Source: Synechococcus sp. AG-673-A03
GTDB lineage: Bacteria > Cyanobacteriota > Cyanobacteriia > PCC-6307 > Cyanobiaceae
Reading direction: 5' to 3'
Assembly: GCA_003211275.1 (NCBI GenBank)
Contig: QCTE01000002.1
Coordinates: forward strand, 1-64,000
DNA: 64,000 nucleotides
Each line of letters begins with the position of its first letter. Position 1 is the stretch's first letter. The notes below the pieces were generated by a model. The model had not been told where the DNA came from, did no database searches, and saw only the letters and a program-made list of their open reading frames with translations. Below are positions 26,445 to 62,801 of this stretch, piece after piece. A program made the position numbers and the translations under genes.

Positions 26445-26846
26445 TCAAGCGGCCGTCGATCGGGACGCAAGCTCAATCAGCTCCACCTTGTAGCCATCGG
26501 GGTCCTCCAGAAAAGCGATCACCGTGCTGCCGTGCTTCATCGGGCCCGGTGCGCGCACGAGCCTTCCACCGCGCTCAGCGATCCCAGAACAGGTGGCACG
26601 GATGTCCTGAACCCCGAGAGCGATGTGGCCATATCCATCACCCAGGTTGTAGTGCTCGGTGTCCCAGTTGTGCGTGAGCTCCAGCACGGTGTGATCCTTT
26701 TCGTCGCCATAGCCCAGAAAGGCCAGTGTGAAACGACCGGAGGCATAGTCCTTGCGACGAAGCAACTGCATGCCCAGGACATCGGTATAAAAAGCGAGCG
26801 ATCGCTCGAGATCACCAACCCGAAGCATGGTGTGCAACATGCGCAT
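26445..26846 (-). CDS. gloA: Lactoylglutathione lyase (glyoxalase I)
   Basis: 133 residues. Isomerises the methylglyoxal-glutathione hemithioacetal to lactoylglutathione, the main detoxification route for methylglyoxal. Metal ligands sit where expected: His in MRMLHTML, Glu in HTVLELTHNW, His in GYGHIAL and Glu in GYKVELIE. The ATG at 26846 matches the family start; a TTG at 26858 in the same frame is less likely. It is followed directly by clpB. It matters for this window because a methylglyoxal synthase fusion lies at 57955. Confidence 0.95.
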   Translation of the reverse strand: MRMLHTMLRVGDLERSLAFYTDVLGMQLLRRKDYASGRFTLAFLGYGDEKDHTVLELTHNWDTEHYNLGDGYGHIALGVQDIRATCSGIAERGGRLVRAPGPMKHGSTVIAFLEDPDGYKVELIELASRSTAA

Positions 26847-44668: not shown

Positions 44669-46150
44669 ATGACTCTGACTCTGAGCCTTCTAGTCATTGT
44701 GGCACTCCTGACGATCCATCGGGTTTGCAAACGTCAGAAGCTCAGCCCGCCGCCTTTGCGACTGCCTTTGATTGCAGCGATCGGCATCCCGCTGCTGAAC
44801 AAACTGGCTGAAATCGTCAGCTACGGCGGTCTGCCGGTTTTGCAGAACTCACTGGCAGCAGTCATCACGCTGCTCTGGGCTCTGAGTCTGATCCGCATCC
44901 TGAACTGGGGCATCCTGCAGATTCCCGCAGAGCTGGGCTGGTGGAAACCCACCGCCAAGATCCTGCGAGACCTGCTCACCCTTGCGATCATCACAGCCGT
45001 GGTGATGATCGTGATTCACCGCGATTTCCGCGTCAATCTGGTCGGCTTGGCAGCCACCTCAGCCGTGGTTACCGCAGTGATCGGTCTTGCCGCTCAGGAG
45101 ACCCTGAAAAATCTATTTGCGGGGATCTCGCTGCAAGTTGACTCACCCTTTGAAGAGGGTGACTGGATTGATCTGGGCACAACAACAGGAGTCGTGACAT
45201 CGCTCCGTTTAATGACAACCCGAGTGCGTGGAATGGACGGGTCAATCACCGTGGTGCCGAACAGCCGCATCGCCGTGGAAGGCCTGCGCCGCTTCAAGCC
45301 TGAAGAACCTGTCGGTCAGATCATCGATCTGGGCTTGGATTACAGCCTGCCTCCACGCCAGGCAATCCAGCTGCTGCAACACACTCTTCAAGACAACCGC
45401 AAGGTGCTGCGTCACCCCACACCGAAGGTATGGGTGTCGTCCTTCGCCGACAGCTCGATCACCTACAGCCTGCTGACCTGGCAGACCACTGCACTGGAAT
45501 TACGCCAGCTGCGAAGCACTGTGCTGGAGCAGATCTGGTACGCACTCCATCGCATTGATCAATCGATCCCTTACCCAATCCGAGACGTTCGCACCAAGCC
45601 AAGCCCAGCCAAGTTGCCATCCAGCGACATCACGATGCAGCAGAAGCAAAAGCTGCTGGCCTCAACAGAAATCTTCGGCCACCTGAATGAGCATCAGCTT
45701 GAAATGCTGGCCGATCTCGCAAGCTGCGAGACCTTTGCACCCGGTGAATCGGTCGTCAGGCAGGGAGAACGTGGTGACAGCCTCTATCTCGTGGTCCGCG
45801 GAACACTGGAAGTGTTTCAGTTGAATGCCAACAGCGCTGCAAGGCATCCAGGTCGGCACGTCGCCGATCTTGAGACCAGTGACGCCTTTGGTGAAATGGC
45901 ACTCTGCACCGGTGAAGCACGTTCAGCGAGCGTGATCTGCAAGAGCGAATGCGTTTTGATCGAGATCGAGCGAAAACACTTACTACCACTGCTCGAGGAA
46001 CAGCCTGAAATTCTCGAAACCATGGGCTCGATCATGGCTGCAAGGCAGCAGCAACTCAAAGCGAACCAACAGCAACGAGCTGAGCCCCTGCGCCTCGCGT
46101 TGATTGCACGGATGCAGAGATTGTTCAGTCTCTCCAGTCAGGAGCAATGA
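44669..46150 (+). CDS. Cyclic-nucleotide-gated MscS-family channel (bCNG type)
   Basis: 493 residues: several N-terminal membrane helices (about 2-20, 33-50, 58-80, 100-117), the pore helix and MscS beta domain (about 120-310; AAQETLKNLFAGISLQVDSPFEEGDWI, VPNSR), then a cytoplasmic CNMP domain (about 325-460). The phosphate cassette is intact: Glu409 (FGEMAL) and Arg418 (EARSASV), so cAMP or cGMP binding is likely. Proteins of this build are known as bacterial cyclic-nucleotide-gated channels. The stop overlaps the adenylate-cyclase start (ATGA), which suggests a local ligand source. Confidence 0.88.
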   Translation: MTLTLSLLVIVALLTIHRVCKRQKLSPPPLRLPLIAAIGIPLLNKLAEIVSYGGLPVLQNSLAAVITLLWALSLIRILNWGILQIPAELGWWKPTAKILRDLLTLAIITAVVMIVIHRDFRVNLVGLAATSAVVTAVIGLAAQETLKNLFAGISLQVDSPFEEGDWIDLGTTTGVVTSLRLMTTRVRGMDGSITVVPNSRIAVEGLRRFKPEEPVGQIIDLGLDYSLPPRQAIQLLQHTLQDNRKVLRHPTPKVWVSSFADSSITYSLLTWQTTALELRQLRSTVLEQIWYALHRIDQSIPYPIRDVRTKPSPAKLPSSDITMQQKQKLLASTEIFGHLNEHQLEMLADLASCETFAPGESVVRQGERGDSLYLVVRGTLEVFQLNANSAARHPGRHVADLETSDAFGEMALCTGEARSASVICKSECVLIEIERKHLLPLLEEQPEILETMGSIMAARQQQLKANQQQRAEPLRLALIARMQRLFSLSSQEQ

Positions 46151-47997
46151 ACAGGCAGCACCTGATTCGCCAGGCCATCCCCTATGCGGCAGCGACAGCA
46201 CTGCTGGTAGGCCTACAGCAGTCACCCTTGGTAGAAACCGCCAACCTGCTCGTCTACGACCTGGCGATCAACCTGCGCAACCGAAGCAATGATGACGAAG
46301 CCAAAAACCTCAAATGGCCGATCACGGTGGTTGGGATCAACGAAGCCGACATCAAGCGGTATGGCTGGCCCCTCAACGACACCCTGCTCTGCCGGGCTCT
46401 AAAACAACTCGATACCCTCGGCGCCAGTGCCATCGGCCTTGACCTGATCCGCGACCAGGCCAAACCCTGCCTTCAAGGCGAGATTCAGCGCAATCCACGT
46501 CTGATCTCGATTAGCAATCAACTCGATGGCATCTCAGCGATCCCTGGAGCACCTGCCCGGCAACAGGCCTTCAATGACCTGGTCGTGGATGCCGACCGTG
46601 TCGTGAGGCGTGATCTCATTCACGTGGGTGGGCAGGAGGAGACTCTGCGATCGCTGCCGCTGCGACTGCTGGAAACAGCAAGTCAAACCAGAGACCTGGA
46701 CAGCCAGCTTGAGCAGCTGAAGGACCATCACTGGCTGAGGGAGCAATCAGGCGGTTACCAAAGCCTGGATGCCGCCGGCTACCAGGCCATGCTTCCGGTC
46801 TATCCCCCAGGGCGTTATCCAGTTCTGGACCTGAGCGATCTGCTCGAAGGCGAGGTTCTTGAGGAGATGATCCGCGGCCGTGTGGTCCTGATCGGCAACG
46901 TGGCTCCCTCCCTGCGTGATCTGTTCGAAATCCCCCACAGCCGCTTTATCAGCGGCTCCCAATTCTTTGAAGTGTCAGGGGTGGAACTGCATGCTCAACG
47001 CCTGGAAGCCCTACAGCGACTGCTGCAGAGCCGTGCTCCGGAAATCGTCACCGCTCAGGGTTGGCAACGCACGCTGCTGTTACTGGTCATGATGCTCGTC
47101 GGCGGAGTCATCGCCGAACGCCCTGCAAGAATCCGCCGCAGTTTGGTACTGCTCTCAGCAGCGACCATTCTCCTCGTTGGCACATTGTTCGGGTTGACGC
47201 TTGGCGGAATCTGGATCGGACTCACCATGCCTCTCTCTGGCCTGGTCGTGATCAGCGGGAGCGGCATCCTGAGGCGTGGGATCCAAAGCCAACGTCACCA
47301 GCAAGAGATGCGGCGCCTATTGGGTCAGACCAGCTCTCCAGCTGTTGCACAGCAACTCTGGGATCAACGGGAAGATCTGATCAAAGACGGGCGTTTCACC
47401 GGTCGGGAACAACAGGTCACTGTGCTGTTCAGCGACACCTGCAGCTTCACAAGTGTGAGCGAACAACTGAACCCCTCAGAGTTGATGCAATGGCTGAATC
47501 GTGGCATGAGCATCGGCGTCGATGCAGTCACGAGTCGCGGTGGAATCGTCAACAAATTCACCGGTGACGGCATGCTGGCCGTCTTCGGAGCTCCTGTCTC
47601 CAAAACTCCAGCCGTGGATGCGTGCCAGGCCGTGGCAGCTGCCCTGACAATTCAGGACAAAATCTCAACGCTGAATGAAGCTCTCTCCAGGGAAGGTCAG
47701 CCACCGTTGCGGATGCGGATTGGGATCCATTCCGGACCTGTACTCACTGGATCTCTTGGAAGCAGCAGGCGGTTGGAATACGCCGTGATCGGCGACACCG
47801 TGAACTGCGCGTCTCGACTGGAAGGCCTGGAGAAGGATCGCCATGAGGGCATGGTGAGGATCTTGCTGTCGGGTGAAACGCAGTGCCTACTCGAGACATT
47901 GCCTCCTCATATAACCGGCGAATCATGGGGAAAGGTCCGGATCAAAGGACGTTTAGAACCATTGGAAGTGATCGAACTCAAAAGCACTGCACCGTGA
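46147..47997 (+). CDS. CHASE2-domain adenylate cyclase
   Basis: 616 residues: an N-terminal membrane helix, an extracytoplasmic CHASE2 sensor (about 35-295; PITVVGINEADIKRYGWPL), three membrane helices (about 310-380), and a class III cyclase domain (about 410-600). Metal Asp430 (LFSDTCSFT) and Asp474 (TGDGMLAVFG), the purine-selecting Lys470 (VNKF) and the transition-state Arg in NCASRLE are present; the second purine position is Ala546 (LEYAVIG), where Thr or Asp is usual. cAMP production is likely. Translationally coupled to the gated channel. The 3' end overlaps the DUF928 gene by 20 bases. Confidence 0.88.
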   Translation: MNRQHLIRQAIPYAAATALLVGLQQSPLVETANLLVYDLAINLRNRSNDDEAKNLKWPITVVGINEADIKRYGWPLNDTLLCRALKQLDTLGASAIGLDLIRDQAKPCLQGEIQRNPRLISISNQLDGISAIPGAPARQQAFNDLVVDADRVVRRDLIHVGGQEETLRSLPLRLLETASQTRDLDSQLEQLKDHHWLREQSGGYQSLDAAGYQAMLPVYPPGRYPVLDLSDLLEGEVLEEMIRGRVVLIGNVAPSLRDLFEIPHSRFISGSQFFEVSGVELHAQRLEALQRLLQSRAPEIVTAQGWQRTLLLLVMMLVGGVIAERPARIRRSLVLLSAATILLVGTLFGLTLGGIWIGLTMPLSGLVVISGSGILRRGIQSQRHQQEMRRLLGQTSSPAVAQQLWDQREDLIKDGRFTGREQQVTVLFSDTCSFTSVSEQLNPSELMQWLNRGMSIGVDAVTSRGGIVNKFTGDGMLAVFGAPVSKTPAVDACQAVAAALTIQDKISTLNEALSREGQPPLRMRIGIHSGPVLTGSLGSSRRLEYAVIGDTVNCASRLEGLEKDRHEGMVRILLSGETQCLLETLPPHITGESWGKVRIKGRLEPLEVIELKSTAP

Positions 47998-54636: not shown

Positions 54637-55317
54637 CTAATCAATCAAGCCGCGCTTCTCCAACGGCTTGAGATCAGCCAGATGCAAGCGCCCATCCTGC
54701 TCAATCACCGTGCCGCGTTGTCGCAGCTTGCTCAGGGTGCGCGAGGCAGTTTCCCTTGCAAGGCCTGCAATCAGGGCGATTTCCTGCTGCGCGAGAGGGG
54801 GTATCTGGGCCTGAAGATCATCGTCGACCGAGCTCTTGCGAGCCAGATAACTGAGAGCACCAAGCAACCTCGTCGTGGCATCTGCTGTCTGAAGTGCAAA
54901 ACGACGGTTGAGGTCTCGCAACCGGTTCGCCTCCAGCTTGGCGAGCGCGAAAGCAAAGTCGGCTTTCTGACTGAGCAGTGCAGCAACGGGTGGAATCCGC
55001 AGTTTCACCAAACGCAGCTTGGTCAGAGCAACCACATCGGCAGATCGCGAGTCCCCATCGAACACCGCCATCTCGCCAAAGACATCACCAGTCCCTAGCA
55101 GCGACATCACGACCTCATCACCATCGGTCGTGTACGTGCGCACTTTGGCCAGACCATCGCAAAGCAAAAACAGAGACTCGCCCCAGTCCTGCTCCATCAC
55201 AATCACCTGATCGGCTTCATGAACAAGTTCACGCTGCCGGTCAAGAATCTTGTCGAGCAATTCGTCATCAAGACTCTCGAAAAGAGCGATAGCTCGCAGA
55301 TCGTCGCGACTGATCAT
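54637..55317 (-). CDS. CRP-family transcription regulator, cAMP receptor-like
   Basis: 226 residues. The CNMP domain (about 10-125) has the intact phosphate cassette Glu82 (GEMAVF) and Arg91 (SRSADV). The C-terminal winged helix (about 145-220) has the recognition sequence ARETASRTL, keeping Arg188, Glu189 and Arg193, which correspond to the base-contacting residues of E. coli CRP. It should therefore read TGTGA-N6-TCACA boxes; candidates lie at 39415 and 57865 in this window. Related to SyCRP1 of Synechocystis rather than NtcA. Convergent with tpsB; divergent from the Coq4-like gene. Confidence 0.88.
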   Translation of the reverse strand: MISRDDLRAIALFESLDDELLDKILDRQRELVHEADQVIVMEQDWGESLFLLCDGLAKVRTYTTDGDEVVMSLLGTGDVFGEMAVFDGDSRSADVVALTKLRLVKLRIPPVAALLSQKADFAFALAKLEANRLRDLNRRFALQTADATTRLLGALSYLARKSSVDDDLQAQIPPLAQQEIALIAGLARETASRTLSKLRQRGTVIEQDGRLHLADLKPLEKRGLID

Positions 55318-56236: not shown

Positions 56237-56803
56237 ATGTGGGGAGACGAACCTCAGCTGCAGGCCTTCCGAGAACGACTGAAACTCCTGCTAATCGCAC
56301 ACCAGCAGGAGCTCAATCCTGAGCAGCTCGTCGCAGCCGAAGGAGACATTCTGTTTCACCAGGGCGACTCGGTGGAGACTTTGATGTTGCTGACCCAGGG
56401 GCGTGTCGCCGTTGATATTCATTACGGCGATGAGATCCACACTCTGGCCGAAGTGGAAGCTGTTGAATTACTCGGCGAAGTTGGTTTCTTCGCCAATGGC
56501 AAGCATTACGCCGACTTCCGCGTTGTGGGCGGACAGGCAGAGCTTCTGGCCATTCCAGGCCAGGCACTGCTTCAGGCCATGTTGTTTGACGTTGATCTCG
56601 TAGTGGAGATGCTTTCACTGGTCAGTGAGCGCTGCCGGCGCGGCAATCAGGTCATCGCCATGCTGCTGAGCGGCATTGAAGCCGTGCATGACGATTCCCA
56701 GGAGAAAATCGAACAAGCAACGACAGAGCTTGGGGGCATCCACTTCTGCATCGCCAAAGCCAGCAAACAACTGCAGAAGCTGCAGAAGCAGTGCCGAAAC
56801 TGA
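56237..56803 (+). CDS. Small CNMP-domain protein (paralogue 1)
   Basis: 188 residues with one CNMP-like domain (about 30-130; LFHQGDSVETLMLLTQGRVAV, LLGEVGFFANGKHYADFRV) and a C-terminal helix of about 55 residues containing two Cys (IHFCIAKAS, KQCRN). In the phosphate cassette the Glu is kept, but His replaces the phosphate-binding Arg. No DNA-binding or enzyme domain. It is similar to the product at 57000, so the two are probably a duplication. A sequestering or adaptor role is possible; function unknown. Confidence 0.78.
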   Translation: MWGDEPQLQAFRERLKLLLIAHQQELNPEQLVAAEGDILFHQGDSVETLMLLTQGRVAVDIHYGDEIHTLAEVEAVELLGEVGFFANGKHYADFRVVGGQAELLAIPGQALLQAMLFDVDLVVEMLSLVSERCRRGNQVIAMLLSGIEAVHDDSQEKIEQATTELGGIHFCIAKASKQLQKLQKQCRN

Positions 56804-56999: not shown

Positions 57000-57575
57000 A
57001 TGAAGAGCGAGAACCAACAGCTCACCCAGATTCGTAATCGTCTGCGGATGTTGCTGAGCACCCATCTCTCCACAATCAGCCATCAAACGCTCACAGCAGC
57101 TGTGGGTGACGTGCTGATCGAACAGGACACACCAGCCGTCAGGGTGCTGATTGTGCAAACAGGGGAATTGAAAGTTGAACGCTGTGAACCAGGTGGCACG
57201 CCTCAAGTGATCGCGCAAATCAGACCGGATGAACTGGTCGGAGAAATGGCGTTGATCGGTGATCAACACCACAGCGCAAGCGTCACGGTGAGTCGCGGAC
57301 CGGCCGAGATCCTGGTGGTTAAGGCGGATGATCTACTTAAGGCTTCCATCTACGACAGCGACCTGGTGATGGAACTGCTGGCTCTAAGCAGCAACCGCTG
57401 CCGCCAAACCAACCGCCATCTGACTTTGATCCTTGAAGCCCTTGGGGCTTTGGATCAAGAGCATTCCTCCACACTGGACCGGTGCTGCAACGAACTGGAG
57501 AACTGCTCTGATCCAGCACTTTCCAACGCAGCCCGCCGGTTGAGGCGATTGGCAGAAGCACCGGAAAAACCTTGA
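57000..57575 (+). CDS. Small CNMP-domain protein (paralogue 2)
   Basis: 191 residues with the same build as the 56237 product: a CNMP domain (about 30-130; DVLIEQDTPAVRVLIVQTGELKV, LVGEMALIGDQHHSASVTV), a linking helix (LVMELLALSSNRCRQTNRHL) and a C-terminal helical tail with Cys (RCCNELENC). Again Glu is kept and His stands where Arg normally binds the cyclic phosphate. The ATG at 57000 lacks a good ribosome binding site; 196 bases separate it from the first paralogue. Confidence 0.75.
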   Translation: MKSENQQLTQIRNRLRMLLSTHLSTISHQTLTAAVGDVLIEQDTPAVRVLIVQTGELKVERCEPGGTPQVIAQIRPDELVGEMALIGDQHHSASVTVSRGPAEILVVKADDLLKASIYDSDLVMELLALSSNRCRQTNRHLTLILEALGALDQEHSSTLDRCCNELENCSDPALSNAARRLRRLAEAPEKP

Positions 57576-57864: not shown

Positions 57865-57894
57865 TGTGAAAGGAAACACAGGGCAAACTTATAG
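57865..57894 (+). promoter_or_regulatory. CRP-like box and possible -10 before the CNMP-methylglyoxal synthase gene
   Basis: TGTGA-AAGGAA-ACACA (57865-57880) matches the CRP box at 9 of 10 half-site bases and sits in a larger imperfect palindrome CCTGTG...CACAGG. TTATAG at 57889-57894 could be a -10 hexamer. The box lies about 75-90 bases before the start codon and close to the presumed -35, so either repression or activation is possible. Confidence 0.55.
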
Positions 57895-57954
57895 AGCAAC
57901 CACACAGCCCATCGAGGCCAACACCCTTAAGGTCAGACAAAGAGAAGAACCCTT

Positions 57955-58848
57955 ATGGATCGCAACGTCCTGATCAAAACCCTGCAAAACGAAGGGAATC
58001 TGAAGCATTCGTTTAGCGCCGAAGATATTGAACTCATCGCTCAACAGATGTCGATCAAAACATTCGAGAAGGACACCATCTTGATGTGCAAAGGAGAGCC
58101 TGCCGACTACATGGCATTCCTTGTGAATGGCCGGGTTCAGATTCTTGAAGACGAGAGACAGATTGCACTGCTTACAAAAGGCGATTTTCTAGGCGAAAGC
58201 CTGTTCTCTGAAGAAGCAACACGCGTAGCAGATGTTCAAGCCATGGAGCACACAACAGTGGGGCTATTCACAATTCATGATTTCCATAATTTTTTAAAGA
58301 CTAAACAAAGACTTGCGCTTCAGTTCAGGGAACTTTTCAAGGCCGTAGAACGCGCCCGAGCCGAGCAACACACAGCAGAAACATATATCGATAAACGCAA
58401 ATACTTGGCACTAATAGCTCACAACAACATGAAAGAAAGCCTGATGGAATTTTGCAGCATTCACACTGATAAGTTAGAAAAATTTCCCCTCATTGCAACA
58501 GGAACAACCGGCAGTATGTTATACAAAAAAACTGGCATGTGCCTCAGCCGCAAAGTCGCCTCAGGCCCCCTGGGCGGAGACCAAGCAGTGGGAACATTGA
58601 TATCCACACAAAACATCAGCGGCGTAATTTTTTTCAGAGATCCACTCTCTTCCCACCCACACCACGCCGATATCGAAGCTCTTGGACGCCTCTGTGATGT
58701 CTATCAGATCCCTTTTGCAACGAACCCTCAAAGCGGCGAAGCCATTCTCGACTACCTTCTTTCCGCCAAGGCAAATCGCGAACTCCTTCCCAATCGTGTT
58801 TTGGAGGCCTACGTTAAAGGACAAAAGAAAGTCATCGAAGCAGGCTGA
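57955..58848 (+). CDS. Cyclic-nucleotide-binding domain fused to methylglyoxal synthase
   Basis: 297 residues. Residues about 18-125 are a CNMP domain with an intact cassette: Glu81 (LGESLF) and Arg90 (ATRVADV). A helical linker (about 115-147) leads to a complete methylglyoxal synthase domain (about 150-292): LALIAHNNMKE, LIATGTTGSMLYKKTG, GPLGGDQAVGTLIS, IFFRDPLSSHPHHADIEAL, PFATNPQSGE. Aligned to E. coli MgsA, His156, Asp209, Asp229, His236 and Asp239 are kept; the Asp after the first His is Asn157. The enzyme turns dihydroxyacetone phosphate into methylglyoxal and phosphate. cAMP control of the activity is inferred from the fusion. The gene is poorer in GC than its neighbours. Confidence 0.9.
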   Translation: MDRNVLIKTLQNEGNLKHSFSAEDIELIAQQMSIKTFEKDTILMCKGEPADYMAFLVNGRVQILEDERQIALLTKGDFLGESLFSEEATRVADVQAMEHTTVGLFTIHDFHNFLKTKQRLALQFRELFKAVERARAEQHTAETYIDKRKYLALIAHNNMKESLMEFCSIHTDKLEKFPLIATGTTGSMLYKKTGMCLSRKVASGPLGGDQAVGTLISTQNISGVIFFRDPLSSHPHHADIEALGRLCDVYQIPFATNPQSGEAILDYLLSAKANRELLPNRVLEAYVKGQKKVIEAG

Positions 58849-58859
58849 AACCAACCAAA

Positions 58860-60635
58860 TCAATCGACCCGATCATGAGAAGACCGAAGAGATACCAGGC
58901 CAAAAACTTGGATCGGTTCCGGCCAACCCTTAACAAGATGTGCTCCCAAATCTTCAACGACCACATCGTCGAAGATTTGATCTCGAACATCACCACTGAT
59001 TAAAATCGGGTAATCCGGAAACTGACGTGTAAGGGATTCCAGTCGACTGGCCAAGTTCACTGTCGCCCCAATCACGGTGTATTCCAGCCGATTACTCGAG
59101 CCAAGATTACCGGCAATCACATCACCGCAGTGAATGCCAATACCTTGACGCAATGGTCCAAGCCCCTCACTCACGAGCTCTCTGTTCAACTCCTCCAGGT
59201 TCGCCTGCATAGCGAGAGCAGTCCGCACTGCAGCCAGCGCCTCGACCCGATCGCCACGGTGAACGGGCACACCAAATTCCGCCATGACGGCATCCCCAAT
59301 AAATTTGTCCAACAGCCCCTGTTCGAGCAGCACAGGTGCTGCAATCGCCTCAAAGTATCGATTCAACAAACCAAACAGACTCTCTGCATCCATCACATTG
59401 CTGCGGGCAGTGAATCCGACCAAATCAGTAAAAAGCACCACGCATCGCTCCCGTCTGCCGCCCAGTCGCATCCAACTCTCCTGACCCGAACGCAACATGT
59501 CGCGCATGAGGTTGGGCGAGACCCTTCTGGACAACACGGAGTGCAGAAATCGGCGCTGTGCGCTCTCCTGCTGAAACAAATCCCCCGTACGAAGACCTCC
59601 AGCAACGAAAGGCATCAACGCCAAGGAAGCGGCAGGCAACCAAATGCCGTAAAACCAAACGAAGATCGTCAGTCCGATCGCCAACGCCCCAAGAGCAGTG
59701 GAGACGATCGCAGTACCAAGCGCCGTCGATGGCACAGCAATCCGCCAGTTGCACAACAGCAACCAGATGAGGACAATCGCAGCTAGCGGAATAACTTCCG
59801 GACTACGGAAGCCTCGTCCGCTGCGCAATCCGGAGACAGCTGAAAGCAACACCTCAGAACCGCTCTGCTGTCCAAATGGTGTCTCGAGCTGATCACCAAG
59901 AGATCGAGCCGTAGAACCAATGATGACGATCTTGTTCCGCCAGGTGTCCTCCGGAAGCGTGCTCACAGCCCAGGCGGGGATCACCGGGATCGATCCGCTC
60001 GGCCCCAGGAAATCAATCCCGTCATCGCCTGATGATGGGGTCACTTCTGCTGCCAGATGTGCCAGAGGTAAGGGATGTGGCCTGGGGAACGGTTCCAGCA
60101 TGGACTGGAGTCGCCCTAGGCCAGGAACAGATTGCACAACACCAAAGTCATCCATGGAAAAAACAGACAGACCCGCCTGGTAGTTGATATCCCAGGGACG
60201 ACGCAATTGAATCTGTTCGAAATCGTCAATTTGCTGTCGAACAAGAGATGAACTGAGCAGGACTTTGTCTTGCCATGGCTTCAGAACATCCTGAAAAGCA
60301 ATGTCATCTTCAGGGCCATGACGGCTTGGGCCGGCATGAACGATGTTGAACACAACACGACGGGCACCCTGCCGCAAAACCTGTCGTGCCAATGCAGCCT
60401 GCTTCTCTCGCGGCCAGGGCCAAGGACCGAAGTCGGTCCACTGGGGATCCAGGGACGCCTCATCAATCCCCAATAACACGACGTCATCGGAGACGGGGAT
60501 TGCGCCACGCCACTGAAAGAGCAGCTGCCGACTTGCAGTATCCAAACGCGCCAGCCATGGCACAAGCACCAAAGGCAACAGCAAGGATGTGCGCCAAAGG
60601 ATAGGAATCAGGCGCTGACGCATCGATCCTGTCAA
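58860..60635 (-). CDS. CHASE2-domain adenylate cyclase (second copy)
   Basis: 591 residues: a signal/anchor helix, CHASE2 sensor (about 40-275; VVLLGIDEASLDPQW), three membrane helices (about 280-350) and a class III cyclase domain (about 390-575). Both metal Asp (LFTDLVGFT; IGDAVMAEFG), the purine-selecting Lys (LDKF) and Thr (LEYTVIG), and the catalytic Asn/Arg (NLASRLE) are present, a set like that of cyanobacterial adenylate cyclases. It is co-translated with the upstream FecR-domain gene (four-base overlap) and converges on the CNMP-methylglyoxal synthase gene with an 11-base gap. Confidence 0.9.
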   Translation of the reverse strand: MTGSMRQRLIPILWRTSLLLPLVLVPWLARLDTASRQLLFQWRGAIPVSDDVVLLGIDEASLDPQWTDFGPWPWPREKQAALARQVLRQGARRVVFNIVHAGPSRHGPEDDIAFQDVLKPWQDKVLLSSSLVRQQIDDFEQIQLRRPWDINYQAGLSVFSMDDFGVVQSVPGLGRLQSMLEPFPRPHPLPLAHLAAEVTPSSGDDGIDFLGPSGSIPVIPAWAVSTLPEDTWRNKIVIIGSTARSLGDQLETPFGQQSGSEVLLSAVSGLRSGRGFRSPEVIPLAAIVLIWLLLCNWRIAVPSTALGTAIVSTALGALAIGLTIFVWFYGIWLPAASLALMPFVAGGLRTGDLFQQESAQRRFLHSVLSRRVSPNLMRDMLRSGQESWMRLGGRRERCVVLFTDLVGFTARSNVMDAESLFGLLNRYFEAIAAPVLLEQGLLDKFIGDAVMAEFGVPVHRGDRVEALAAVRTALAMQANLEELNRELVSEGLGPLRQGIGIHCGDVIAGNLGSSNRLEYTVIGATVNLASRLESLTRQFPDYPILISGDVRDQIFDDVVVEDLGAHLVKGWPEPIQVFGLVSLRSSHDRVD

Positions 60636-61351
60636 GGGGATGGAGCCATAACCCCCAGTTCTCGCTGGATTTCAGGGAGCGTGTCTAGAGGTGTTGAAAA
60701 CCCGTTAATCAAACGGCTCTTCTGGAGTCGACGTTCAACCTCCTGTTCCGCAATTACCACCGGTGGCGCCCACGAGACAGCAAGCGGATCATCTTGTTGA
60801 ACACTGCCATCAGGTTGGAGGCGTTTCAGATCTAACAACAGCTGTTGACCACTGTTCAAGGTGAAGCTCTGACCACTCCTGGTTGTCACCAAGACCTTGC
60901 CTTCCCAGCTGAAAATCTTGCACTGACTGTCGGTGAACTCAATGAACACCGTGGTGCCTTGGATGGAGGCCGTAGCCAGACGAGTCTTGATGGTGAACGG
61001 ACGAAGGGTCTGGGTGCCTGGATTGATCCAACCGATGATCGACCCCTTCAATAATTCGACACTGGATGAACCAAGACGCAGCTGCGCATCACCTCCCATC
61101 CTGAACTGGCGGCCGGTACCAAGCATCACCTGCATGCGCCCTGGCTTTGTAGTGCGCAGTAACGCATCGGTGCGCAACAACTGACCCGAGCGTGCATCAA
61201 CCTCTGCCTTGCCGGAAAATTTGACAAAGGCAGGGCCATTGGGAACCTCAACGATGCGTGGCTGAGCAGCCTGTGAGGGCAAGCCAAAGAAGGCTGTGCC
61301 CATCAAGAAACATGCGGCAGCCTGCACACGAACCGATTGCCTCAACACATA
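60632..61351 (-). CDS. Exported FecR-domain protein
   Basis: About 239 residues from the GTG at 61351, chosen because it gives a good signal peptide (VRVQAAACFLMGTAFFGLPSQA). The FecR-type beta domain (about 45-160) shows GKAEVDARSGQLLRTDALLRT, QFRMGGDAQLRLGSSSVELLKGSIIGWINPG and TRLATASIQGTTVFIEF. Such proteins sit in the periplasm and, in cyanobacteria, are often next to CHASE2 proteins; it may present a signal to the CHASE2 sensor. Its stop overlaps the cyclase start. Other possible starts are TTG 61405 and ATG 61303. Confidence 0.8.
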   Translation of the reverse strand, partial: YVLRQSVRVQAAACFLMGTAFFGLPSQAAQPRIVEVPNGPAFVKFSGKAEVDARSGQLLRTDALLRTTKPGRMQVMLGTGRQFRMGGDAQLRLGSSSVELLKGSIIGWINPGTQTLRPFTIKTRLATASIQGTTVFIEFTDSQCKIFSWEGKVLVTTRSGQSFTLNSGQQLLLDLKRLQPDGSVQQDDPLAVSWAPPVVIAEQEVERRLQKSRLINGFSTPLDTLPEIQRELGVMAPSP

Positions 61352-61487
61352 CAACCCACATTCATCCAAGGCTGACAGAAAAGCGCTGATGGCGCCACTA
61401 ATCAATCAGAAGGCAAAAATGATCCGTTACGAGTTGCTGAGTCGAGTAGCAATTGCCAGATTAGGGACAAGCAGCATTTGAAAACTC

Positions 61488-62801
61488 ATGGCATACGAAA
61501 ACGTTCTTAATAACCCGACTACATTCGATTTTCGTATCGAAGAGCTGGGTGAAAGCCAATACTCCAATCCTAGCAACAATGCAGTTTTTGTTGACAATAT
61601 GGAGCGCATTATCTTTTCGAGCCAACTCAAAAATCTGAAGCATCAACTGGAAACATGTGCAGAATTACCCTCTTTTGAAAAAGCAGGCGCCCGTCGAAAA
61701 ATTTTTCACAATCCAGAATCAACCCAGGCCGCCATCATCACATGCGGGGGCCTCTGCCCAGGGCTGAATAATGTCATCAAAGGGTTGGTCAATGTTCTCG
61801 AGCAGGATTACGGAGTCAAAAGTATTCTTGGCATCCGCTATGGATATAAAGGACTGACGCAGGCATCAACTCATCCACCAATCCAACTCAATTCTCTGAT
61901 CGTCGATCAGATTCATAAACAGGGCGGAACCATACTTGGATCTTCTAGAGGTAGTCAGGATCCAGAGGAGATGGTGGACATGCTCCAGGCAAGAGGAATC
62001 AACCTTCTCTTTTGCATTGGCGGCGATGGAACCTTAAAGGGTGCTCAGGCGATCGCGGAAGCCGCAATCGGTCGCAAAGCAAACATCAGCATTGTCGGTG
62101 TCCCTAAGACCATTGACAATGATCTCGGCTTTGTCGAGAAAACCTTCGGCTTTGAAACCTCAGTACAAACAGCCTCGGAAATTATCACATCAGCCCAACA
62201 CGAAGCAGAAGGGGCTGAAAACGGCATCGGCATCGTTAAGTTAATGGGACGAGACTCTGGCTTCATCACTGCCACGGCATCTCTCGCAAACTCTGTGGTT
62301 GATTTCTGCCTAATCCCAGAAACCCCTTTTCAAATCGGCGGGCCGAACGGAATCTGTACTGCTCTTCAACGAAGGATTGAACAAAAAAACCATGCTGTGA
62401 TTGTCGTAGCAGAAGGAGCAGGACAGGAACTCTTTGCTAGCAACGAGAGAAAGATTGATGCTTCCGGGAACATCCTGAAAGAGGACATCGGAGAATTACT
62501 CAAAGAAAAGCTGACAGCTCACTTCAAGCAAAACAACATGACGATCAACATCAAGTATCTTGACCCGAGCTACCACATCCGAAGCGTTGCAGCCAATGCT
62601 TCAGATGCTGTTTTTTGCCAGCTACTGGCCGAATATGCCGTCCATGCAGGAATGAGCGGGAAAACGAATCTTGTCATTGGTTACTGGAACAATTTCTTCA
62701 CCCACGTCCCTATTCATCTGGCCACAAATGAAAGGCGAATGGTTGATCTTGATAGCGCGCTATGGCGCGGCGTCATGAGCGCAACTCATCAAGATAAATA
62801 A
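61488..62801 (+). CDS. Phosphofructokinase, plant-type (group III-like)
   Basis: 437 residues. TCGGLCPGLNNVI (85-97) binds nucleotide, GGDGT (178-182) is the motif of ATP users, PKTIDND (206-212) carries the catalytic Asp, and MGRDSGFIT (253-261) binds the sugar phosphate. GGDGT with PKTIDND and the long N-terminal extension resembles plant and trypanosome ATP-dependent enzymes; PPi users normally have GGDD. It phosphorylates fructose 6-phosphate to the 1,6-bisphosphate; sedoheptulose 7-phosphate is a possible second substrate. GC is lower than in the neighbours (about 42-47% in sampled lines). Divergent from the fecR-cyclase pair. Confidence 0.9.
   Translation: MAYENVLNNPTTFDFRIEELGESQYSNPSNNAVFVDNMERIIFSSQLKNLKHQLETCAELPSFEKAGARRKIFHNPESTQAAIITCGGLCPGLNNVIKGLVNVLEQDYGVKSILGIRYGYKGLTQASTHPPIQLNSLIVDQIHKQGGTILGSSRGSQDPEEMVDMLQARGINLLFCIGGDGTLKGAQAIAEAAIGRKANISIVGVPKTIDNDLGFVEKTFGFETSVQTASEIITSAQHEAEGAENGIGIVKLMGRDSGFITATASLANSVVDFCLIPETPFQIGGPNGICTALQRRIEQKNHAVIVVAEGAGQELFASNERKIDASGNILKEDIGELLKEKLTAHFKQNNMTINIKYLDPSYHIRSVAANASDAVFCQLLAEYAVHAGMSGKTNLVIGYWNNFFTHVPIHLATNERRMVDLDSALWRGVMSATHQDK

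Follow-up and report, generated by a model that had tools for sequence, protein, structure and literature searches.

The window, by which we mean the whole stretch of 64,000 nucleotides that was analysed, is rich in cyclic-nucleotide genes (Table 1). One of these genes (57955–58848) joins a cyclic-nucleotide-binding (cNMP) domain to a complete methylglyoxal synthase (MGS, MgsA) domain in a single open frame of 297 codons without interruption, as the initial annotation had proposed. The residues singled out in that annotation, namely Glu81 and Arg90 of an intact phosphate cassette and His156, Asn157, Asp209, Asp229, His236 and Asp239 of the synthase, are all present at the numbers it gave. The fusion gene and a gene for a CHASE2 class III nucleotide cyclase are convergent, with 11 bases between their stop codons. 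Elsewhere in the window, the gene for an MscS-type channel with a cNMP domain overlaps that of a second CHASE2 cyclase by four bases (44669–47997, + strand), and the two are likely to form a unit of cyclase and cyclic-nucleotide-gated channel.

Table 1. The fusion gene, its parts, and other genes of the window.
Feature	Position	Strand	Evidence
cNMP-binding domain / methylglyoxal synthase fusion gene	57955..58848	+	ATG start, 297 aa
N-terminal cyclic-nucleotide-binding domain and C-helix, residues 1-142	57955..58380	+	PF00027 61.1 bits; fold superposition
Phosphate-binding cassette, residues 80-92 GESLFSEEATRVA, with Glu81 and Arg90	58192..58230	+	
C-helix (118-142) and short linker (143-148)	58306..58398	+	Model: H118-142, E150-155
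Methylglyoxal synthase domain, residues 149-272	58399..58770	+	NF003559 145.5 bits; Z 17.8-20.7; residue table
C-terminal tail, helix 281-296, like the C-terminal part of E. coli MgsA	58771..58845	+	1egh alignment
CHASE2 sensor and class III nucleotide cyclase	58860..60635	-	PF05226 96.5 bits, PF00211 62.3 bits
FecR-domain protein	60632..61405	-	PF04773 33.5 bits; overlaps cyclase gene, same unit
6-phosphofructokinase (PRK06830 type)	61488..62801	+	NF005301 609.9 bits; third gene downstream of fusion
Stand-alone cNMP-binding protein, directly upstream of fusion	57000..57575	+	PF00027 53.2 bits
Second stand-alone cNMP-binding protein	56237..56803	+	PF00027 47.6 bits
CRP/FNR-type regulator, cNMP and HTH	54637..55317	-	PF00027 65.3 bits, PF13545 44.4 bits
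MscS-type channel, C-terminal cNMP domain	44669..46150	+	PF00924 57.9 bits, PF00027 62.3 bits
Second CHASE2 class III cyclase	46147..47997	+	PF05226 145.4 bits, PF00211 78.4 bits
Glyoxalase I (methylglyoxal removal)	26469..26843	-	TIGR00068 162.5 bits, above cut-off

Profile searches, which had been suggested as a check on the proposed architecture, bore out both domains. Pfam places cNMP_binding (PF00027) at residues 35–116, above its cut-off of 27.5 bits, and MGS at residues 171–256 (44 bits, cut-off 24.1). The NCBIfam methylglyoxal synthase model NF003559 covers residues 146–278 and its cut-off of 84 bits is passed, while the score against TIGR00160 (142.6 bits) lies slightly under that model's own cut-off of 146.9. 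No helix-turn-helix (HTH) family was found in the fusion by Pfam or NCBIfam profiles, the MGS domain standing in the HTH place; domain profiles likewise gave no TIR or membrane effector family, and Pfam gave no DAGK/NAD-kinase-like C-terminal domain within 57955–58848.

The same division is seen at the level of structure. A search of solved structures by sequence led from the C-terminal half to methylglyoxal synthases and from the N-terminal half to PKG/PKA-type domains. The model predicted from 29 homologues (mean pLDDT 83, pTM 0.49) superposes on the MgsA proteins of Thermus, Borrelia, Bacillus and E. coli at Z 17.8–20.7, with E. coli MgsA (1egh) aligning to residues 147–292, and on 3gyd, HCN2, GlxR, PKA-R and stand-alone cNMP domains at Z 16–18. 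The N-terminal half combines the PF00027 profile score with the beta-roll fold and C-helix of that family. In the model a short linker connects the C-helix (118–142) to strand 150–155, which ends at His156-Asn157. We regard both domains as sure and the predicted packing of the two domains as unsure.

An assembly chimera or frame error was considered and ruled out, because the same full-length frame recurs at 73–95% identity in further genomes, several of which are single-contig and about 99% complete. Among the closest orthologues, for which dS is unsaturated, dN/dS is about 0.11–0.16 for the cNMP domain and 0.005–0.04 for the MGS domain, indicating purifying selection on both. Compared with two homologues (L052 and L028), the cNMP domain is 55–59% identical and the MGS domain 92–93%; of the two, the cNMP domain is the faster to diverge, yet it is still constrained. 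In the DNA upstream, a palindromic CTTAAGGT-like box lies at 57924–57933, about 20–30 bases 5' of the start codon, and alignment shows it to be kept in seven orthologues whose remaining upstream DNA is poorly conserved. It is a possible promoter or regulator site. Sites resembling the CRP-type operator TGTGA-N6-TCACA number 31 in the window against 31.7 expected, which is the level of chance, and a near-match at 57865–57880 upstream of the fusion, partly kept in the orthologue L024 (95% identity) and absent in the others, was rejected.

The initial annotation had taken the fusion to be an apparently new architecture. It is not unique to this genome: full-length homologues occur in marine Synechococcus, Trichodesmium, Verrucomicrobiota, Myxococcota, Pseudomonadota and other metagenome-assembled genomes (MAGs), as well as in related complete genomes. 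The carriers are scattered and are mostly marine bacteria. The spread is patchy, with the fusion in 9 of 161 Cyanobiaceae (two of the nine being of a divergent type); among 241 genomes sampled from the phylum around L015, the query genome is the one carrier. The labels of single-MAG contigs are not all reliable for the taxonomy of carriers; one labelled Crocinitomicaceae (L007) has many neighbour genes in common with the Synechococcus loci and appears to be misbinned. No relative turned up in a scan of viral contigs. In a tree of the MGS domain, built on few columns and with a long-branch warning, the 32 fusion rows form one group (support 95/95) apart from both stand-alone MgsA and the cyanobacterial MGS-kinase fusions, and the divergent cNMP-MGS proteins L038 and L057 are nearest to it (joint split 97/88). 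The architecture is real and old, and distant lineages have retained it as a single gene. A second, divergent cNMP-MGS group, about 27–33% identical, comprises L038 (genome G032), L057/L091 (G313), L069 and L070, and some of its members have damaged MGS active sites. A gene adjacent to one fusion homologue (L019:2188–5043, − strand) encodes two cNMP domains together with a class V aminotransferase domain and is apparently another cNMP-enzyme fusion.

The phosphate-binding cassette of the window copy follows the pattern G-E...R-x-A through G80, E81, R90 and A92. Eight residues separate Glu81 from Arg90 in GESLFSEEATRVA, a spacing that we take to resemble that of PKA-type domains, and Arg90 is followed by Val, not Thr, presumably a mild argument against a preference for cGMP. 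Glu81 is kept in 26 of the 29 aligned family members and Arg90 in 23, and every aligned member from outside the picocyanobacteria keeps both. The pocket is therefore not kept throughout the family. All six losses of Arg90 are picocyanobacterial (Gln in L027; His in L003, L004, L030 and L054; Ser in L053), L003 having Asp at position 81 as well, and the members concerned have probably lost or changed the switch. In three copies (L006, L012 and L056 of G300) a frameshift, different in each, falls within the cNMP domain or shortly beyond it, two of the three being close to the cassette, and the MGS frame is still open; erosion of the cNMP half, sequencing error or recoding could each account for them. 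Since Arg90 is lost in 6 of 29 members, gating is not to be assumed for every one, and these losses together with the three frameshifted copies indicate that some lineages do without the switch.

The state of the cassette is associated with the cyclase next door. The motifs of the cyclase at 58860–60635 are intact (the metal aspartates, the KFIGD lysine, the YTVIG threonine and VNLASR), and we take these residues to be those expected of an ATP cyclase. A convergent CHASE2 cyclase adjoins the fusion in six genomes, all picocyanobacterial (G000, G010, G021, G034, G250 and G313), and the FecR gene travels with the cyclase gene in relatives. In G313 the homologue beside the CHASE2-cyclase and FecR genes is only about 33% identical to the fusion of the window, and its cassette is intact. 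All six cyclase-linked copies have an intact cassette, compared with 3 of 12 unlinked picocyanobacterial copies (G001, G006 and L005; Fisher p 0.009, kinship ignored). The cassette is lost in the other unlinked copies (G003, L003, L004, L006, L012, G012, G332, G363 and G300), three of these nine being also frameshifted. A class III cyclase is encoded in 34 of 35 carrier genomes, and the exception is G012, a single-contig genome, about 99% complete, whose fusion copy has His for Arg90. Within the Cyanobiaceae sample a cyclase is found in 8 of 9 carriers versus 58 of 152 non-carriers (p 0.004, uncorrected). A strict match between loss of the cassette and absence of a cyclase fails, as the genomes of L053 (G332), L054 (G363) and L003 have cyclases and no Arg90. 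Conserved linkage to the cyclase is seen only in picocyanobacteria, and the neighbours of the fusion differ in other lineages. The neighbouring CHASE2 cyclase is the likely source of the signal for the fusion.

The fusion and the phosphofructokinase gene are linked in G001, G010, G021, G034, G250, L007 and L014 as well. In L014, a Gemmatimonadetes MAG, it is next to the fusion; the L007 case is not counted as independent because that contig looks misbinned. Outside the picocyanobacteria we found no general conserved neighbours, the phosphofructokinase of L014 alone recurring. This linkage fits a role of the fusion at the triose-phosphate node. Glyoxalase I is present in 13 of 13 carriers tested. 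In G012, the gene adjoining the fusion (L049:8329–9486, − strand) holds an aldo/keto reductase domain; methylglyoxal reductases are among the members of this family.

Gating by a cyclic nucleotide would be the most economical function for such a protein, and we consider it probable, with considerable room for doubt, that the fusion is a methylglyoxal synthase into which a second-messenger switch, responding to cAMP or another cyclic nucleotide, is built. This reading is strengthened by a neighbourhood on which the initial annotation did not draw, the class III cyclase that adjoins the fusion, even beside a distant homologue. A rather unlikely alternative is that the synthase is active and its cNMP domain serves assembly or partner binding, or senses a small ligand other than a cyclic nucleotide. 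Many CRP-family domains have shifted to other ligands, and the six losses of Arg90, the much faster evolution of the cNMP domain and the three copies frameshifted there would all be consistent with such a change. Against this, the window copy and every aligned member that is not picocyanobacterial have both Glu81 and Arg90, and intact cassettes accompany a neighbouring cyclase.

Whether the second domain can act as a synthase is addressed by its active site. The window copy carries His156, Asn157, Lys160, Asp209, Asp229, His236 and Asp239, and the motifs TGTTG (182–186), SGP (203–205) and GGDQ (207–210, with Asp209) are intact. In E. coli numbering, Asp209 corresponds to Asp71, His156 to His19, His236 to His98, Asp239 to Asp101 and Lys160 to Lys23. 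Asp71 is the catalytic base of the E. coli enzyme, the equivalents of His19 and His98 stabilise oxyanions, and TGTTG together with Lys and Ser grips the substrate phosphate (PMC7843640). Asp209, His156, His236, Asp239 and Lys160 are each kept in at least 28 of the 29 aligned family members. Asn157 occupies the position of E. coli Asp20, and the initial annotation had remarked on it as a replacement of a conserved Asp. The substitution is real and is not a local oddity: since Asn is found in 28 of the 29 members, it is a signature of the fusion family. In the exception, L021, the MGS half has lost the catalytic base along with further catalytic residues. Of the stand-alone and kinase-fused MGS examined, almost all have Asp here, and L065 alone has Asn. 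The change could lower synthase activity. Asn157 alone does not exclude membership of the MGS family because Asp20 is not known as essential; on sequence grounds, the protein would be assigned to methylglyoxal synthase (EC 4.2.3.3) by its family score and catalytic residues, with the conserved Asp20 lacking.

Asn157 is also what would favour the idea that the MGS domain does not function as a synthase and instead, coupled to the cNMP domain, senses triose phosphate or phosphate. We find this improbable, given the near-complete retention of the five catalytic residues above, the intact TGTTG and SGP of the window copy, the very strong selection on the domain and an NF003559 score beyond the cut-off.

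Comparison with known systems helps to place the fusion. Stand-alone MgsA (E. coli 1b93/1egh, Thermus 2xw6/1wo8, B. subtilis 6f2c) has the same fold, nearly all of the active-site residues and 41–48% identity over about 125–140 residues, but it is without a regulatory domain, has Asp20 where the fusion has Asn, and falls in a separate group of the MGS tree. E. coli MgsA, which the initial annotation had used for contrast, does lack a regulatory domain; it is not the sole comparison, as cyanobacterial MGS-kinase fusions exist. Synechocystis Sll0036 likewise joins MGS to a second domain (PMC11897720), but in this type the extra domain is C-terminal and NAD- or lipid-kinase-like, there is no cNMP domain, and the tree group is a separate one (99/88). 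In many other cyanobacteria the frame that contains the MGS domain is about 420–510 aa long (L031–L042, L058–L072), and the two examples scanned (L031 and L042) combine MGS with a DAGK_cat/YegS_C lipid-kinase-like domain; the DAGK/YegS-type part of the cyanobacterial MGS fusion has been termed an NADK motif (PMC11897720). CRP/FNR regulators and MscS-cNMP channels share a cNMP domain with the same cassette, but their outputs are DNA binding and ion flux, respectively, and the fusion has neither an HTH nor a channel domain. A parallel in layout is mycobacterial Pat (Rv0998, MSMEG_5458), in which an N-terminal cAMP domain likewise precedes the catalytic domain and cAMP acts directly on the enzyme, a protein acetyltransferase (PMC8556138). 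The catalytic domain of Pat is a protein-modifying GNAT, whereas that of the fusion belongs to a glycolytic-bypass enzyme.

Pycsar systems likewise set a pyrimidine cyclase gene (PycC) beside a gene for a cNMP-TIR or cNMP-membrane effector, and it is very improbable that the present pair is such a defence module, in which the cyclase would answer phage infection and the fusion would flood the cell with toxic methylglyoxal: the layout, the patchy spread over phyla and the PADLOC Pycsar profiles (PycC 91 bits for the cyclase; weakly, 28–35 bits, for the cNMP domain) are in its favour, but these matches follow from common cyclase and cNMP domains, the cyclase is of the CHASE2 membrane type with ATP-type residues, the fusion is without a TIR or membrane effector domain, and the scanned neighbours are metabolic or cAMP-related with no other defence gene among them.

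The claim of novelty holds for the literature that we searched. In the open-access library searched, no paper contains both 'methylglyoxal synthase' and 'cyclic nucleotide-binding domain', and the one paper to combine 'cyclic nucleotide' with methylglyoxal synthase is a Leptospira transcriptome study on an unrelated matter. To judge by this open-access literature, the architecture is undescribed. As a kind, cAMP-gated enzymes are already known, mycobacterial Pat being an example; to our knowledge, few bacterial enzymes outside signalling are directly gated by cAMP.

For the switch-bearing synthase that we favour, the following mechanism can be proposed. The CHASE2 class III cyclase next door would make cAMP, which would bind the cNMP domain and shift its C-helix. 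Through the linker, this shift would alter either the active site itself or the way in which an MgsA-like hexamer packs. Movement of the C-helix on ligand binding is the usual output of cNMP domains, and in the predicted model it would therefore have a short path to the active site, with only the linker and strand 150–155 between. Methylglyoxal synthase is held in check by phosphate. The synthase would draw off dihydroxyacetone phosphate, yielding methylglyoxal and free phosphate, and the methylglyoxal would be cleared by glyoxalase I. We lean modestly towards activation by the ligand over inhibition, because the product is toxic and because in mycobacterial Pat, which has the same layout, the cAMP domain in front of the enzyme is an activating switch (PMC8556138). 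Our confidence falls from the ligand being cAMP, through the ligand altering activity, to the ligand activating. The question of gating is directly testable, since only one protein, probably a soluble one, is involved, its assay is standard, and variants without Arg90 occur in nature.

More tentatively, and as something we would suggest rather than expect, the CHASE2 cyclase and the cNMP-gated synthase may form a two-gene circuit that works without transcription, in which an outside signal drains triose phosphate and releases phosphate. Other bacteria are known to use methylglyoxal formation as a route for overflow and under stress (PMC12096831), and loss of MGS promotes mixotrophic growth in Synechocystis (PMC11897720). 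If true, such a circuit would concern marine picocyanobacteria, Trichodesmium and other, mostly marine, bacteria. The interest of the fusion lies in a direct, testable link from cAMP to central carbon metabolism: if the synthase is gated, cAMP signalling would act directly on a metabolic target in marine cyanobacteria of ecological importance, and what becomes of triose phosphate and its phosphate could be tied to a membrane sensor.
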